From Marinomonas sp. SBI8L (GTDB taxonomy: Bacteria; Pseudomonadota; Gammaproteobacteria; Pseudomonadales; Marinomonadaceae), in contig NZ_JSEO01000016.1 of assembly GCF_001624705.1 (NCBI RefSeq), positions 58,461-122,460 on the forward strand: a DNA stretch of 64,000 nucleotides, written 5' to 3'. Shown here one piece after another: positions 10,151 through 58,189 of the stretch. The position numbers were made by a program, and so were the translations under genes. The notes beneath the pieces were generated by a model. It saw only the letters and a program-made list of their open reading frames with translations, did not search any database and was not told the DNA's origin. Numbering within the stretch: the stretch's first letter is position 1; each line of letters starts with the position of its first letter.

Positions 10151-10564
10151 ATGAATATTGAAGTATTACAAAAGCCAGATAGTGACTTGATTGATTTCTT
10201 GGATAAGAAAATCAAAGAGATGAATTGGCAAAACTGGGAGGTGAGTGAAAGACTTCCTCTTGCTGTTCAAATTAAAGATGACTCTGGTGAGGTCGTCGCT
10301 GGGGCCGCAGCTCGTACTTTTGGTGATTGGCTATTATTGGATACCTTATGGGTCTCTGAAACATTAAGAGGCCAAGATGTCGGTAGTAAAATTCTAGCCA
10401 AAGTTGAAGAGGCGGGCAAAGCAAGAGGTTGTAAAAAGTGCTTTTTAGAAACACTGCATTTTCAGGCTAAACCTTTTTATGAGAGAAAGGGTTATCAGGT
10501 AGAATGGGTACAAGAAAACTATCCAAAAACGGGTTGTCAGTATTTTATGGTGAAACAGCTCTAA
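10151..10564 (+). CDS. GNAT family N-acetyltransferase
   Basis: The 137-residue protein carries the GNAT acetyl-CoA core: VAGAAARTFGDWLLLDTLWV (beta4), then LRGQDVGSKILAKVEEAGKARG (the R-x-x-G-x-G/A pyrophosphate loop and helix), then CLETLHFQAKPFYERKGYQ. Such enzymes acetylate small amines or proteins in the cytoplasm. A cupin gene follows 54 bp downstream of its stop, so the two may be co-transcribed. Acceptor unknown. Confidence 0.85.
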   Translation: MNIEVLQKPDSDLIDFLDKKIKEMNWQNWEVSERLPLAVQIKDDSGEVVAGAAARTFGDWLLLDTLWVSETLRGQDVGSKILAKVEEAGKARGCKKCFLETLHFQAKPFYERKGYQVEWVQENYPKTGCQYFMVKQL

Positions 10565-17544: not shown

Positions 17545-17952
17545 TTTTTAGATGATTATTAGGATCAAGCGTAGTTTTGAATCGGCATATCCGCAAGTTA
17601 CCCTAACCTAATAAAACTAAAATTAAGCTTAGCTTTCTGTGATTGATTTAAGAGAAAATACCAATAAATAAAGCATAATTTTCTGCTGGGCTATTGGGAG
17701 AAAGCGTGACACTCTATGAACCACTGAACCACTGAACCACTGAACCACTGAACCACTGAACCACTGAACCACTGAACCACTGAACCACTGAACCACTGAA
17801 GCAGTGAAAATGAAACTTTAAATAAGTTAAAACACGCTGTCGCTTTAAGTGTGATAACGCTGAAGAAAAGATATGATTCAGTGGCTTATTAGGCAGTACT
17901 TTGAATGAAGCAATCTAAGAATCACCACTAACTTTCAATTAATGAGGTCGAA
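17545..17952. other. 408-bp intergenic region containing an octamer repeat tract
   Basis: This lies between the divergent kinase/small-frame unit and the monooxygenase gene. Apart from the octamer tract (17721-17800) it is AT-rich and shows no other clear feature. It must contain the promoter of the 17953 gene. Confidence 0.4.
17721..17800. repeat. Octamer microsatellite, 10 perfect copies
   Basis: CCACTGAA is repeated ten times without error, preceded by a partial TGAA and followed by a mutated unit (GCAGTGAA). It lies 152 bp upstream of the monooxygenase start and is not in a reading frame. Slipped-strand length changes are expected and could alter promoter spacing or leader length. Confidence 0.9.
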
Positions 17953-53045: not shown

Positions 53046-53317
53046 CTAGGGAGCCTGTGAATATGTCTTCCCGCCTCAGCGTGTGGATAAAAGCCGTTAG
53101 ATTTATGGCGAGGAGCGTAACTTAATAGTTATTCTATTGATAAGCTCTTCAAACATAAAGATAGGGCTTTTAGGCCATGCCCTTCGGATCTTTCAGAAAA
53201 AGTAACACCCTGTGTTGTCACTTCTCATAAGTTACCTAGATTATATCAAAGTAACACCTTGTGTGATGCTTTTTCTGTAAAGACTGAGAAGAGGTGACTT
53301 ATTCGCAGGTTCCTTAG
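53046..53317. mobile_element. MITE-like element copy 3, full length
   Basis: The element runs from CTAG (53046-53049) to TTAG (53314-53317), with inverted ends GGAGCCTGTGAATATGTC and, on the complement, GGAACCTGCGAATAAGTC. It is colinear with the reverse complement of copy 1 through its whole length, including two inner motifs of the type CACCCTGTGTTGTCAC. It has no coding frame. Copies diverge by scattered substitutions. Confidence 0.9.
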
Positions 53318-53332
53318 CAAAAACAAGACGAA

Positions 53333-53367
53333 AAAAAAGCCCTGATAGGTTATCAGGGCTTTTTTAA
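53333..53367 (-). terminator. Strong bidirectional terminator downstream of the tRNA-Leu 3' end
   Basis: GCCCTGATA (53339-53347) pairs with TATCAGGGC (53351-53359), with A6/T6 flanks extending the stem to 15 bp. On the minus strand it lies about 37 bases after the tRNA-Leu 3' end and would end its transcript. Confidence 0.85.
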
Positions 53368-53403: not shown

Positions 53404-53457
53404 TGGTACCAGTAGGCGGACTCGAACCGCCACGCCTTTCGGCAACGGATTTTGAAT
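53404..53457 (-). pseudogene. 3' part of a split tRNA-Leu(CAA)
   Basis: Read on the minus strand, the fragment has the anticodon-loop core ATTCAAAA, the 3' anticodon arm, a class II variable arm (TTGCCGAAAGGCGTG), a T-arm with GGTTCGAGTCC, acceptor strand TACTGGT and an encoded CCA. It lacks the D-arm and 5' acceptor strand. These lie at 57920-57958, and together the pieces make an 85-nt tRNA. Confidence 0.9.
53450..53457. repeat. Left attachment core (att) of the island
   Basis: TTTTGAAT, the anticodon-loop core of the split tRNA. The same 8-mer is at 57920-57927. The flanks share an imperfect GCAACG too, giving about 16 bp of similarity. Confidence 0.8.
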
Positions 53458-53564
53458 TGGTTGGATATATCTTTTTGATTTGCATTATCAGCAACTTACA
53501 ACGCATTAAACTCATGCGTATACAACTTTGAGGTTTTGAAATGTATGATAATCTAACTTAGGGA

Positions 53565-54841
53565 TTGGCAATTTACCGCCAAAAACACACAAAAAGTATC
53601 TATGTCAGGCTCAGAGTTGATGGTAAAGAGATCAAGCGTTCTCTCAAAATATCAAATATTGACGAAGCTAAAAGTCGAGATTGGGCGTTAAAGTTTGAGT
53701 ATGAAGGAAAGCTAACAGCAGGCTTACCCATTATTGAAAGTAAAGAGCCTATGATCAACACTGCTATAAAGCAGATTTTGAAAAATATGGAACTCAAAAA
53801 AATCAAAAGAACAACTTACGCTGATTATAAGTATGTTTTTGAAAATGTGATGTTCCCTTACTTCAACAGAAAATCAATGTCTTTTCTTACAACTAAATTG
53901 TTCGTCTTTATTTTGAAACCCTGGAATTATCAAAAAGCCGTATAACCATACATAAAACTTGTTTCAAAAAACTTTTTGAACATCTTGAAGAAGAGCTTCT
54001 CAAAAAATCTAACTTTCCTATTATCCCAAAAATAGAAACAACCGAACAAGAAATCAGACATTCATTCTTATTCCCTCATTTGACTGTTATTGATGCAGGG
54101 TTTGATCAATACATGGATCAGACAGTAGAAAAACTAGCTAAAACAAAAGAATATAGAACCATATTAAAATATTATTTTAAGTTTTTAATTGAAACAGGGG
54201 TTAGACCAGGCGAAGAAGTTAAACATTTAAAGTTTAGTAATTTTAAACGATCTACAAATGACTATGGTGAAACAGAAGTATTCTGTATTGATCACCAAAG
54301 GGAAAACAGCCCGGCACCTTAAACAAGGAATAAAAATTGTTTTAACGAATGGAAAATAACACAATCTATACTTGAAATGGCTAAAGTTCAAAATCCAGAT
54401 AAAAAGGTAACATTAAAAAACTTTAACACTATTCAAAGATCTATTTTAGAAAGCTTAGAAGGCAAGTTTACTTGTTATTCAAAGCAGTTTGGTAACTACT
54501 TAAAATGGTTAGAAAAAGGTGATTACCTGAAAACAGATAGGACTTATATATTGTATTCTTACCGTCATACTTTTATAACAGAAAAATTAAAGCAAGTTGT
54601 AGATATCTACCTAATAGCTAAATATGCGGGTAATTCAGTAGAAATGATACAAAATCATTATGATGACTACAAGCTTGATCAGCAGGATCACATTGACCAA
54701 TTAACAGGAACACACCGTACCGAAGATAAAAAGAAAAAATCATTCGGAAAAACAATACAGATCGGAAGTGGTGTTAATATTACAAGCGAACATATAAAAT
54801 ATATTTCTGATCCTTTAAAAAACCTTGAGATTAACAATTGA
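53565..54841 (+). pseudogene. Tyrosine recombinase (integrase) with three frameshifts
   Basis: Joined frames give a full integrase: an N-terminal arm-binding and SAM-like part (YRQKHTKSIYVRLRVDGKEI, IKRTTYADYKYVFENV), then after a frameshift at about 53910 the text ETLELSKSRITIHKTCFKKLFEHL, and the catalytic R region (TGVRPGEEVKHLKFSNF). After a second shift at about 54290 comes the beta-hairpin ITKGKTARHLK, and after a third at about 54355 the catalytic C-terminus YSYRHTFITEKL and AKYAGNSVEMIQNHYDDY with the active-site Tyr. The start is a TTG at 53565. It would have catalysed island integration but is now inactive. Confidence 0.88.
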
Positions 54842-54866
54842 GAAAAGTAAATAATTTATTTAACCA

Positions 54867-54896
54867 AAATAGGTTTGTCCCTTAAACCTATTTTTT
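54867..54896 (+). terminator. Terminator of the integrase gene
   Basis: AAATAGGTTT (54867-54876) and AAACCTATTT (54884-54893) pair perfectly with a 7-base loop, followed by TTTATTC. Confidence 0.75.
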
Positions 54897-54941
54897 ATTC
54901 TTTTTCATTATATTCAGAGCTATCAGGGAAATTATTGGGGC

Positions 54942-55713
54942 TTAGCTCTGGAAAAATATGTTGATATTCATATTATATCTTTTCTTTTTATCTAGTTTAT
55001 TTGGGTTAGAAAGTTTATTTATTTTTTTAAGATTTTCAATAAATAACTTTAATTTAGATATCCCATTTTTCTGTTCTTTATCTTCTTTATCTTCTTTATC
55101 TTCAAGTTAATTTCCTAATTTGAAAATATTCTATTTTAACTCTTTATTGTTTTCTATTTCTTTATTAACCATAGAATAATAATCTTTAAGTTTTGTATGC
55201 ACCGCCTTAGAGCCTGGATTATATTTTAGTTTCAATTGTTTTCATTTGGTTTAAGTAAGACTTTTGATAATCAGGTAATGTGCTTTTATTAAAAAGCTCA
55301 CGAGCTGATAATCTAGCATCATCCGTCATTGGAACAATATGAGCGTGTATATGTGGCGTTTTTTCGTCAAGGTGCAACACCGCAGATACAAGGTTGTCAC
55401 CAAACTCGTTTCTTAGCCATTTACGTGCATTTATTGCAAAGTCTTTTGTGTTAGTATTACTTTGGGAAAAATCAGGTGAGAGGCTTAATACAGCTTCAAT
55501 GCAAAGCACTGCATTTTTTCTTGGGGTTATATTATTTTGCTTAAATCTACTCTTTACGTCTTTTACAGCATTAACAGAACCATGTAATTTTTTATTACTT
55601 ATTTTGGGATCGACATTAAGTGTTTCTAAGTATCTTTATACGTGAGCATTTGATAGGTTCAAATTATGATAATCTTTTATTTTTTCAAACCTTAATACTG
55701 TTTTTAATTCCAT
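54942..55713 (-). pseudogene. MobV family relaxase, decayed
   Basis: The frame starts at ATG 55713 (MELKTVLRFEKIKDYHNLN) after GGAGATTTTAA, hits an in-frame TAA at 55636-55638, and continues with RYLETLNVDPKISNKKLHGS and the relaxase motif HLDEKTPHIHAHIVPM (metal-binding histidines), then stops at 55219. In another frame the sequence goes on with NPGSKAVHTKLKDYYSMVNKEIE, the MobV GSKAKH motif, and further Lys/Glu-rich text to about 54942. At least two stops and one frameshift make it nonfunctional. Confidence 0.82.
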
Positions 55714-55771
55714 TTAAAATCTCCATACCATTTTCAGCATAAACAATCTTTGATTGTTTCTACCCGTAGGG

Positions 55772-55819
55772 CGAACACAAACGAAGTTTGTATAGTAAGT
55801 ATACAAACGTGTTTGTTCG
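55772..55819. other. Candidate oriT of the MobV system
   Basis: A perfect hairpin GTTTGTATA/TATACAAAC (55786-55794 and 55800-55808, 5-base loop) is nested in a longer imperfect dyad (CGAACACAAAC and GTGTTTGTTCG). The minus-strand text GTTTGTATACTTAC resembles the pMV158-type MobV nick region. It lies just upstream of the relaxase gene, the normal position of a MobV oriT. Confidence 0.55.
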
Positions 55820-55901
55820 TATTTACATTAAACATATGACCATATATTATAATATTGTCAAATGTTGGGACATTGACAATCACAATTAGATAGATATCCA
55901 C

Positions 55902-55989
55902 AACCGTCTCAATATCACTCCATAACTGTTCCAATCACATCACACAATAGTTCCAAGCTTATTCCGCAACCGTTCCAAAATAAAAAGCT
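55902..55989. repeat. Four iterons, exact 22-bp period
   Basis: Elements starting at 55902, 55924, 55946 and 55968 share AACYGTTCCAA (AACCGTCTCAA, AACTGTTCCAA, AATAGTTCCAA, AACCGTTCCAA), each followed by 11 variable bases. Exact 22-bp (two-turn) spacing is a hallmark of iterons bound by a plasmid Rep protein at its origin. An AT-rich stretch and a rep-like frame follow. Confidence 0.75.
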
Positions 55990-56102
55990 ACACATTGAAT
56001 TATTACTTTAAATATTAGATTGTTTTATCATTGATAAAAAAACCTAATATATCTTTAAGTATTTTATTTATTATTTATTATTTCTTCATAACGAAATAAT
56101 CA

Positions 56103-56193
56103 GAAAAAAGAAAAAAGAAAAAAGAAAAAAGAAAAAAGAAAAAAGAAAAAAGAAAAAAGAAAAAAGAAAAAAGAAAAAAGAAAAAAGAAAAAA
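56103..56193. repeat. Heptamer microsatellite GAAAAAA, 13 perfect copies
   Basis: Thirteen uninterrupted GAAAAAA units precede the rep-like frame. The length (7n) shifts frames on slippage. On the opposite strand it yields a Phe/Leu-rich frame, which I take as chance. Confidence 0.9.
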
Positions 56194-56274
56194 GAAAATA
56201 GAACAATTGAAATAAGTATAAAGAAATTACAAGAAAAATATAAGATTTTTAGAGGAGAGTCAAAATATGATCTA

Positions 56275-56660
56275 ATGGATTTCTTAAACCAAATTAATAA
56301 TGACATATTTTCATATTTTCATATTTTGTTTTAGATAAAGAAAATGAGGTCTTAACTTACAATATCAAACCTGATTATTTTGATACTAATAGCAATACAT
56401 TCTTTGTTAATGCCTGTTTATTGAAAGGACTAAAAATTAACTCTCAAAAAATCGCACTGTATTTAGTGAGTATGGGACCACACGCAAAGTACCTTCATCT
56501 TTCGCATATAGCCAAACTATTAGATATTTTGAAGGTAAGAGTCAGAAGTTAAAACAAAAGTCAGCTAATACAGCCACTATCAAAACATAATTTTATTAAA
56601 GATACTAAGCATGACCGAAGTAGGAAAAACTTTACTTTAAAATGGAAAATCTTAAACTAA
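56275..56660 (+). pseudogene. Broken rep-like gene with HTH region
   Basis: The frame begins near 56275 (MDFLNQINNDIFSYF) and breaks at three tandem copies of CATATTTT (56304-56327). With two copies the frame would join to VLDKENEVLTYNIKPDYFDTN, then INSQKIALYLVSMGPHAKYLHLSHIAKLLDIL, a helix-turn-helix-like part. An in-frame TAA at 56550-56552 interrupts, and the same frame ends at 56660. Position after the iterons suggests a replication initiator. No family is recognised with confidence, and the true start is uncertain (the frame is open upstream to 56092). Confidence 0.45.
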
Positions 56661-56697
56661 AAGAGATAATTAAAGATTTCTCTGACTATTTATAATC

Positions 56698-57693
56698 TCA
56701 TTGATTAAGTTGTGTTAGTAGCATATTTAATGAACTGGAAAATAATATTGTAGGCATAATAAGGGTAAAATAAATGATAGTTCTAACTATTTTTTTTTGC
56801 TTATAGTTGTCTTCGATTGCTTTAGCTATTGGAATTAAGTTAATCATTAGAGCAAACATCCCTACTCTTTTTGATTGAGCAGAACCCATCAGTACCGCGG
56901 AAACTGAGGTTAGTGACAATAAAAAGATTAAGTAATAAAAAAACTTTGCCGATATATCATTAAACACCATTCTATATGATGATATATAGAATATGAACAT
57001 TATCCCCATTACAAATAAATACACACCGACACCTAACTGTCCTGTGTCATTGCTTGATTTAGTTCCTAACGCAAAAGGGAGTAAAATAATCACACTTAAA
57101 TATAAAAACACACTTTTAAAGCTAATTTGCCTTTTCTTGTTTAAAGTGAAAAATAAAGGTGAAAATAATGCTGCCACATTATGCGTAAGAACACCTAATA
57201 ATATAAAAAATGTTTTTTTTAAAAAACCAGAGTGAATAAATAATAAAGAAGAGAAATATAAAAATACAGTATAAGATAAATATTGTCTGTAAACGTTATT
57301 AATTCCCATTACAGCAGGGAAAAACAATAGAAAAAGATAGGTAAAGTATTGGGGTAACCCTATATTCTTTCGTGCTTTTAATACAAGCATAAAAGAAATA
57401 ACATCATATATTATAAATGTAACTTCTGGAGACTGTGTTATTTTATATAAATATCGTGAAGAAAACCAATAGACAGGTTCTTTCAAATAATAAAGTGAAA
57501 CAAGCTCACTTTTTAATGCACTTGCATATGTATTTATATCAATATCAAAACCTGAAAATCGAGTAATGATTGAGTAAATAGTAAACAAAAAAAGTGTAAC
57601 GAAAAAATACAACTTTTCAGATTGTAGTCTTTTAACACAAAACAAAGCCCCAATTAAAATTAAAAACAAATAATATATCAGCTCATATGTCAT
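56698..57693 (-). CDS. EpsG/Wzy-type polysaccharide polymerase, island cargo
   Basis: The 331-residue protein has about ten spans and matches EpsG-type polymerases (GINNVYRQYLSYTVFLYFSSLLFI, then HSGFLKKTFFILLGVLTHNVAALFSPLFF; RQYLS and THN are the conserved pieces). Such proteins polymerise capsule, exopolysaccharide or O-antigen units in the inner membrane. The gene is intact but has no glycosyltransferase neighbours. It is extremely AT-rich. It is likely cargo. Confidence 0.75.
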   Translation of the reverse strand: MTYELIYYLFLILIGALFCVKRLQSEKLYFFVTLFLFTIYSIITRFSGFDIDINTYASALKSELVSLYYLKEPVYWFSSRYLYKITQSPEVTFIIYDVISFMLVLKARKNIGLPQYFTYLFLLFFPAVMGINNVYRQYLSYTVFLYFSSLLFIHSGFLKKTFFILLGVLTHNVAALFSPLFFTLNKKRQISFKSVFLYLSVIILLPFALGTKSSNDTGQLGVGVYLFVMGIMFIFYISSYRMVFNDISAKFFYYLIFLLSLTSVSAVLMGSAQSKRVGMFALMINLIPIAKAIEDNYKQKKIVRTIIYFTLIMPTILFSSSLNMLLTQLNQ

Positions 57694-57743
57694 ACTAACC
57701 TACAAAAAAAACCACAATTAAGTGGCTACTTTTAATAATTAAA

Positions 57744-57828
57744 TGGTGCGGGTGGCGAGACTTGAACTCGCACTTCTTTCGAAATTGGATTTTGAATCCA
57801 ACGTGTCTACCGATTCCACCACACCCGC
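57744..57828 (-). tRNA. tRNA-Leu (anticodon CAA), intact, carried by the island
   Basis: The 85-nt gene on the minus strand has a 7-bp acceptor stem (GCGGGTG/CACCCGC), a D-arm, anticodon stem TTGGA/TCCAA with loop TTCAAAA (CAA), a class II variable arm, T-loop GTTCAAG and an encoded CCA. It lies inside the island, 91 bp from the split tRNA. Its acceptor and variable arms differ from the split gene, so it is not a recent copy. Confidence 0.95.
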
Positions 57829-57919
57829 AATTTTATACAACCTTTACTTGAATACAAAAGCCAATGTAATACATTGATTTAAATAAACTTTAGCATGATA
57901 ATGCTGGAAGCGCAACGCC

Positions 57920-57958
57920 TTTTGAATCCGTCGTGTCTACCAATTCCACCACACTGGC
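57920..57958 (-). pseudogene. 5' part of a split tRNA-Leu(CAA)
   Basis: On the minus strand the fragment reads acceptor strand GCCAGTG, D-arm (TGGTGGAATTGGTAGACAC) and 5' anticodon arm ACGGATTCAAAA. GCCAGTG pairs with TACTGGT of the 53404-53457 piece (two G-U pairs) and ACGGA pairs with its TCCGT. 39 + 54 - 8 shared bases = 85 nt. Confidence 0.9.
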
Positions 57959-58189
57959 ATGGAAACTGTGGCTGCGTATTATGTTGATTTTTAAGAGGGC
58001 GTCAACTTTTTTTACCTGCTTTTTAATAAATATCTGTTTTAGACTGTTTTTGATGGCTTTTTATGCGCACTTCAAAAATAAAAAATCGAATAATCCCTTT
58101 TAAGAACATACCTTTTTAACGCAAATTTCGATAAAATGCCGAGTCTTTTTGACTTACTCTATAAATGACTTTCCCTAGGCTTGTTGCGA

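Follow-up and report, generated by a model that had tools for sequence, protein, structure and literature searches.

The window analyzed here is a stretch of 64,000 nucleotides (nt) of Marinomonas sp. SBI8L (genome G000; contig NZ_JSEO01000016.1, positions 58,461 to 122,460 of the forward strand). On its minus strand, next to queA, lies a tRNA-Leu(CAA) gene which, as seen from the sequence and from genome comparison, is cut in its anticodon loop by an island that brings a tRNA-Leu(CAA) of its own, referred to below as the substitute. The island measures 4.47 kilobases (kb) between two copies of a core of 8 base pairs (bp), and the features on which the analysis rests are the following, in window coordinates:

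57978..58005, minus strand: host tRNA promoter, TTGACG-16-CATAAT, upstream of the 5' stub (consensus scan)
57920..57958, minus strand: initial 39 nt of the native tRNA-Leu(CAA), its 5' half, with the core ATTCAAAA at the end, left attachment site (attL); no difference from the intact genes (G000:C2, G036) over this length
57834..57841, minus strand: GTTGTATA at +86 from the core, on the tRNA side, a possible arm-type site for the integrase; relatives have two copies, at +84 and +95
57744..57828, minus strand: intact substitute tRNA-Leu(CAA), 85 nt including CCA, intronless (ARAGORN, Rfam RF00005)
57710..57727, minus strand: terminator-like hairpin and T run behind the substitute (consensus match)
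55219..55635, minus strand: MobV relaxase fragment (NF041497, 106.3 bits, cut-off 100; PF01076, E 2.6e-27)
54323..54841, plus strand: tyrosine integrase, C-terminal piece; 47-48% identity over 124 amino acids (aa) to Marinomonas integrases, no PF00589 match of its own
53897..54322, plus strand: tyrosine integrase, middle piece, in another frame; 39-42% identity to Marinomonas integrases
53565..53945, plus strand: tyrosine integrase, N-terminal piece; 41-43% identity to Marinomonas integrases, PF14659 over cut-off
53519..53526, minus strand: GTTGTATA, possible arm-type integrase site on the integrase side, -70 from the core
53404..53456, minus strand: 3' half of the split native tRNA-Leu(CAA), orphaned and including CCA, right attachment site (attR), core at 53450-53457; no difference from the corresponding part of the intact genes
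53331..53366, minus strand: native tRNA terminator left behind the 3' half (read from the sequence; the intact gene of G036 has a similar hairpin behind it)

Both halves of the split gene contain the core ATTCAAAA (57920-57927 and 53450-53457), and rejoining the 5' half (39 nt) with the 3' half (53 nt, or 54 with a shared A) gives an 85-nt sequence. This sequence is identical to an intact tRNA-Leu(CAA) elsewhere in the same genome (G000:C2:214185-214269) and to the tRNA-Leu(CAA) at two loci of a sister genome (G036), an identity that is well past chance. The sister genome (QueA at 93%) has both native tRNA-Leu(CAA) copies and no island, and at its empty site the two flanks of the window island meet in one unbroken tRNA gene upstream of queA. 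A complete tRNA is found at neither island junction (ARAGORN and locus comparison), so the locus does not behave as a canonical restoring island. The original prediction, made from the letters of the window, had described a tRNA-Leu(CAA) split in its anticodon loop by an island with a substitute tRNA-Leu(CAA), halves that rebuild a proper 85-nt tRNA around an 8-bp core, and a target left unrestored; the rejoined identity, the ARAGORN calls, the empty site in G036 and the two incomplete junctions bear it out on each of these points. Among 30 queA loci examined in 49 Marinomonas genomes, the tRNA-Leu(CAA) is intact at 28 and split at two (the window and G001). The queA-side tRNA-Leu(CAA) of a further genome (G029), which lies outside those 30 loci, is likewise split.

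The substitute (57744-57828, minus strand; Rfam 62.5 bits) is the sole intact tRNA detected by ARAGORN in the window, and it follows the 5' stub on the same strand at a distance of 91 nt. Among the 49 Marinomonas genomes, the best long matches to it reach 78-80% over 70-85 nt, and those to its 5' arm 92% over 38 nt; among the phage and plasmid matches listed, the best covered are just 75-78% identical. Judged from the Marinomonas identities, the island tRNA is foreign to its host, and it has, as predicted, the same anticodon as the target and different arms. The substitute also matches 188 Vibrio phage records; in phage K172 and similar phages, at about 10298-10374, the listed K172-type records match it at 78%, with the features there annotated as hypothetical protein. 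The promoter before the window stub is the same as the one before the intact gene in G036, in a consensus scan that found four promoter-like sites against 2.1 expected in shuffles. Because this promoter stays in front of the substitute and a terminator-like hairpin follows it, both being consensus matches only, the substitute is probably transcribed from the captured host promoter.

Integrase homologues were found in four of the 49 Marinomonas genomes, namely the window's own, G001, G026 and G029, with one weak match in G046 (E 1.9e-5). The intact integrases (four copies in three genomes) are 447 aa long and 87-93% identical to each other; the pieces in the window are 39-48% identical to them. 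A relative tested against protein families (P0002) is a tyrosine integrase by PF00589, over cut-off, and phrog_1. At all five integrase copies (window, G029 twice, G026, G001), a tRNA-Leu(CAA) is cut at the loop and a same-strand substitute stands behind the stub. In the four sibling copies, which measure 6.4-7.2 kb between cores, some 110 nt separate the 5' stub from the full substitute, which lies behind it, and the integrase adjoins the 3' half. The cores, 8 bp in the window and about 9 bp in G029, G026 and G001, are too short to rebuild the target tRNA. Repeats of GTTGTATA with at most one mismatch occur in the siblings at +84, +95, -81 and -69 from the core and in the window at +86 and -70; they are placed as expected of arm-type sites and possibly serve as such, although homologous copies provide no independent evidence. 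The recurrence of the whole arrangement in relatives points to a strategy and not an accident.

The gene content of these elements is plasmid-like. The siblings encode a protein of MobC type (over cut-off for PF05713 in G029, where it was tested), a protein of 628-664 aa in the relaxase position and a protein of 208-210 aa; neither of the latter two, as tested in G029 and G026, has a Pfam or NCBIfam match over cut-off. The MobV fragment in the window and MobC in G029 are mobilization-type genes beside an integrase. When ten proteins were scanned against PHROGs, the integrase alone matched a family of known function; this, the presence of MobC and MobV and the size of 4.5-7.2 kb between cores speak against a temperate phage; a cargo protein of G026 matched phrog_1353, of unknown function (E 8e-55). 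The window element is decayed, with its integrase in three frames and its relaxase truncated, and its substitute tRNA is intact. For a possible remnant of a replication protein near 56304-56552, no Pfam or NCBIfam model matched. In G029, a single-contig genome, two element copies occupy one native tRNA-Leu(CAA) each and are 100% identical over 7304 bp, so they must be recent. The same genome contains a third split-and-substitute case, in which a tRNA-Arg(CCG) truncated behind the anticodon stem lies about 100 nt before an intact tRNA-Arg(CCG) (L146, G029:C1:3387100-3388700, minus strand).

In G303, a 30%-identical integrase of another family ends an element of about 9.7 kb in a tRNA-Leu(UAA) that follows tRNA-Gly and tRNA-Cys; the element consists of a stub, an intronless substitute tRNA-Leu(UAA), a RepL-like protein (PF05732 over cut-off), the integrase and the 3' half, and the rejoined halves give an intact 88-nt tRNA-Leu(UAA) that folds as such. 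Thus, in the window, G026, G029, G001 and G303, the tRNA carried by the element is of the same isotype as its target. A 28% relative in G413 (PF00589 over cut-off) adjoins an intact tRNA-Leu(CAA), a placement that fits ordinary restoring integration, with the far end not found at the locus; another distant match in the order, in G063, lies on a 5.8-kb contig without a tRNA. Relatives of P0002 were absent from plasmids, phages and viral contigs, and among genome contigs were limited to two Marinomonas and one distant Rhizobium, the latter beside a tRNA-Arg. A class-level sample of 369 genomes gave one distant integrase match besides the window's own genome, on a short contig. A search of 390 genomes of the order for a spaced stub and second tRNA picked up the window and one tandem pair that appears intact; the pattern was set too narrow, missing G029 and G026, and therefore carries no information on rarity.

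We consider it highly probable that a small plasmid-like integrative element splits tRNA-Leu(CAA) and brings a foreign substitute. An element with an integrase and a MobV relaxase would have used its tyrosine integrase to enter one of the two native tRNA-Leu(CAA) genes at the anticodon loop of 7 nt. The attachment site of the element would have only 8 bp in common with the target, and integration would therefore destroy the tRNA without rebuilding it. The element would compensate with a complete foreign tRNA-Leu(CAA), placed so that integration sets it directly behind the host promoter and 5' stub in the same direction, and would later have decayed while the substitute tRNA survived intact. 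Comparison of the genomes shows the split gene and its empty site, the substitute, and related elements built in the same way; we infer that the window integrase recombined at the loop, that the captured promoter drives expression and that the substitute functions. Some observations weigh against this account. The integrase of the window is broken, with an identity of only about 40-48% to its intact counterparts; no Pfam or NCBIfam model over cut-off matches the relaxase-like proteins of G029, G026 and G303, and in G029 MobC alone has such a match; the G303 integrase has no PF00589 match at E 0.1, its assignment coming from similarity to the Marinomonas integrases (E 5e-36); and with a second intact native tRNA-Leu(CAA) present, the window host can dispense with the substitute. 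A conventional tRNA-site island, with a target restored on integration and a restored junction that decayed later, when an extra tRNA had made it redundant, would account for GGCGTTGCGCTTC behind the window stub, which by eye loosely resembles a decayed 3' half, and for the distant G413 integrase (28%) beside an intact tRNA-Leu(CAA), as in ordinary islands. It is nevertheless improbable, given that the four intact siblings show no 3' half after the stub either and have just about 9 bp in common with the target, and that two of them, being 100% identical, are recent. Local tandem duplication and decay without any integration, which the presence of two tRNA-Leu(CAA) sequences 91 nt apart might suggest, deserves almost no credence: the substitute is foreign, with best matches of 78-80% over 70-85 nt in 49 genomes, the 3' half is 4.5 kb distant on the far side of an integrase, the plan recurs with integrases and core repeats, and the empty site of G036 already refutes it.

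Whether such a host comes to depend on the substitute is a separate matter. The original prediction held that the island tRNA might compensate for the lost gene and make the island hard to lose. The first part gains from the relatives, in which carriage of a substitute is the way of the element family. A count of other tRNA-Leu(CAA) genes went against the second, as an intact and identical chromosomal copy exists on contig C2, and so did the comparison with an island-free relative, the sister genome G036 having both native copies. With the C2 copy retained, the loss on the queA side leaves no gap that needs filling, the substitute is not strictly required for survival, and its presence alone is no obstacle to losing the island. 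The idea of addiction fits G029 better than the window genome: a scan that scored 150 of 272 candidates found no intact native tRNA-Leu(CAA) in G029, substitutes only, the other leucine tRNAs found being UAG (twice), GAG and UAA. A tRNA-Leu(UAA), as present in G029, may read UUG by wobble.

Several of the substitutes are interrupted by group I introns. In those of G029 (both) and G001, the anticodon loop is interrupted by Rfam group I introns (268 and 261 nt) that score 64.5 and 62.6 bits for RF00028 against a cut-off of 50, and in-silico removal of these introns, which are predicted to be self-splicing, gives tRNA-Leu(CAA). The substitutes of the window, G026 and G303 are intronless. Under strict filters, RF00028 has four matches in the 49 Marinomonas genomes, the fourth in a tRNA-Arg(UCU) of G018 that lies about 110 nt behind a native tRNA-Arg(UCU) stub (compare the intact gene of G029). 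This split gene with its intron-bearing substitute stands at the edge of a defence island (L135/L136, G018:C20:18378-40927) with Shango (SngA-C) and Gabija (GajA/B), which runs off the contig. In DNA sequence, the introns resemble marine phage-gene introns, namely that of Shewanella phage 1/4 between two ribonucleotide reductase pieces and a Vibrio phage intron between terminase pieces.

In 390 genomes of the order, 41 RF00028 matches were found in 31 genomes with the same strictness of filtering. Of the 43 distinct intron matches from both searches, 33 were examined (the other ten are without a locus), and ARAGORN identified 31 of these as intron-bearing tRNAs. For eleven of the 31, a truncated same-type tRNA starts 120-250 nt upstream, with scores of 21-35 against no more than 13 in shuffles: Leu-CAA in G029 (two), G001 and G310, Leu-UAA in G253, G234 and G409, Met-type CAU in G159, G290 and G162, and Arg-UCU in G018. 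The same test was positive for four of 122 intronless controls (the window, G026, G303 and the tRNA-Arg(CCG) of G029), giving a one-sided Fisher p of 3.5e-6, for a control set that is not taxon-matched, its loci being mostly from Marinomonas and not drawn at random. Leaving out loci already known through the integrase, the counts are 8/28 against 1/119 (p 5.5e-6). The stub-substitute tRNA-Leu(UAA) modules of G253 and G234 (L186 on G253:C4, L188 on G234:C1) are 98% identical over about 570 bp, with no alignment beyond the module in the 15 kb compared, and for this identity they are not independent; counting them once gives 7/27 (p 2.6e-5). The test presupposes same-strand upstream placement, a bias that is absent only from the loci reached by way of the integrase. 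The anticodons after splicing come from in-silico junctions tried for ten loci, L123 being the raw ARAGORN call Arg-UCU. Raw ARAGORN labels were wrong at three loci (Leu-CAG at L158, Phe-AAA at L175 and L176), where a junction with the 5' exon ending in T and the intron in G gives Met-CAU and Leu-UAA, respectively, as in the stubs; other junctions can also be called.

The far ends of these loci are less complete. In G290 (C1, L192:2117-3286), a PF00589 integrase (42.8 bits, cut-off 27.1) lies 1.4 kb behind the stub of a split CAU-type tRNA with an intron-bearing substitute, and a candidate 3' half is found at 8.9 kb. A heuristic search of the 30-40 kb read at the intron islands of G253, G234, G409 and G162 gave no convincing 3' half or integrase, and in G159, G310 and G018 the contig ends before either. 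For these seven, the stub and the substitute are what suggests an island. The remaining 20 of the 31 intron-bearing tRNAs have no upstream stub. Stubless intron-bearing tRNA-Leu(CAA) genes occur at six examined loci (L156, L157, L164, L169, L173 and L159, the last with a tRNA 3' half downstream), and since the first five look like ordinary genes, substitutes may come from intron-bearing donors. At L196 (G170:C2:193500-199000), an intron-bearing tRNA-Leu(CAA) is followed 114 nt downstream by the apparent 3' half of a different tRNA, perhaps the trace of a lost element.

Two explanations can be offered for the introns. In one, they are passengers from donor genes and shield nothing: intron-bearing tRNA-Leu(CAA) genes are common, and elements take any tRNA they meet. 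The six stubless tRNA-Leu(CAA) loci, the 20 of 31 intron-bearing tRNAs without a stub and the three intronless substitutes (window, G026, G303) all agree with this, and we give it about an even chance. It leaves unexplained why a same-type stub precedes 11 of 31 intron-bearing but 4 of 122 intronless tRNAs, over four isoacceptor types, and why the intron sits inside the anticodon loop, the very place that these integrases target. The other explanation, which we put forward tentatively and with less confidence because the ordinary-looking stubless genes suggest donor origin, is that the intron in the loop of the replacement might hide its DNA from the element's own integrase. The replacement might equally be hidden from other integrases acting at the same loop, and an adjacent attachment site on the element (attP) could not then recombine with it; at the RNA level, it would perhaps be a normal tRNA. 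A related idea, that the stems of intronless substitutes were altered to escape the integrase, was dropped, as tRNA stems differ between species anyway.

The principle of such an exchange is known from phages. In the available text of PMC10865867, tRNA-dependent lysogeny is demonstrated for mycobacteriophages; among actinobacteriophages, Fionnbharth uses tRNA-Lys-TTT and Gaia tRNA-Leu-CAA with an 8-bp core, and Lj965 of Lactobacillus johnsonii is mentioned as a likely case. The Marinomonas elements have in common with these phages a tyrosine integrase, an attachment site (attB) in a tRNA gene, an element-borne tRNA of the same isotype and a short, non-rebuilding core (8 bp in Gaia, 8-9 bp here), in Gaia even with the same target tRNA (PMC10865867). 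They differ in being small elements with replication, mobilization and integrase genes in Gammaproteobacteria, in placing the substitute directly behind a captured host promoter, in the introns of several substitutes and, for the window host, in the retention of a second native copy. Two Sinorhizobium prophages, as described in the accessible part of PMC11476347, inactivate tRNA-Leu(UAG) and bring a similar tRNA; there, too, the tRNA is cut in the middle and a foreign isoacceptor is supplied, but these are prophages, and that part mentions no intron. Canonical tRNA islands, as outlined for Islander (PMC4383910, in part), similarly combine a tyrosine integrase, a tRNA target and a displaced fragment at the far end, but they restore the split gene, whereas the window island does not. 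The introns resemble bacterial tRNA group I introns (RF00028) in anticodon loops, as covered in the consulted portion of the review PMC3984707, but here they lie in tRNAs carried beside an attachment site; according to that portion, phage introns observed to date are all in protein-coding genes (PMC3984707). A literature search by titles and beginnings of abstracts, with subscription journals mostly outside its reach, found no report of group I introns in such substitute tRNAs or of non-phage elements of this kind. What is new is the use of a known principle by small plasmid-like elements, together with group I introns in the anticodon loops of substitutes.

Together, these elements extend tRNA-dependent integration from phages to tiny plasmid-like elements and provide a route by which foreign tRNA genes replace native ones. 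Island finders that assume a restored tRNA would misplace or miss them. In default mode, ARAGORN reports no tRNA-Leu at either G029 locus; intron-bearing substitutes can thus be missed in tRNA annotation, and G029 would seem to be without tRNA-Leu(CAA). The frequent location of group I introns in anticodon loops also becomes a question that can be tested. If introns do shield the substitutes, hosts of the G029 type, with both native copies split, would depend on the ribozyme-bearing tRNA of a mobile element, and bacterial anticodon-loop introns may persist partly by blocking integrases.

The island and its surroundings contain some further features:

56698..57693, minus strand: EpsG-family (polysaccharide polymerase-like) membrane protein, 331 aa, cargo (PF14897, 39.3 bits, cut-off 30.1)
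56102..56226, no strand assigned: AGAAAAA tandem repeat, 17.7 copies, within the island (repeat scan)

In the host DNA just past the 3' half (window 53199-53264), two 17-nt copies of AAAGTAACACC(C/T)TGTGT lie 49 nt apart. Elsewhere in the window, at 17717-17808, TGAACCAC forms a tandem repeat of 11.5 copies.

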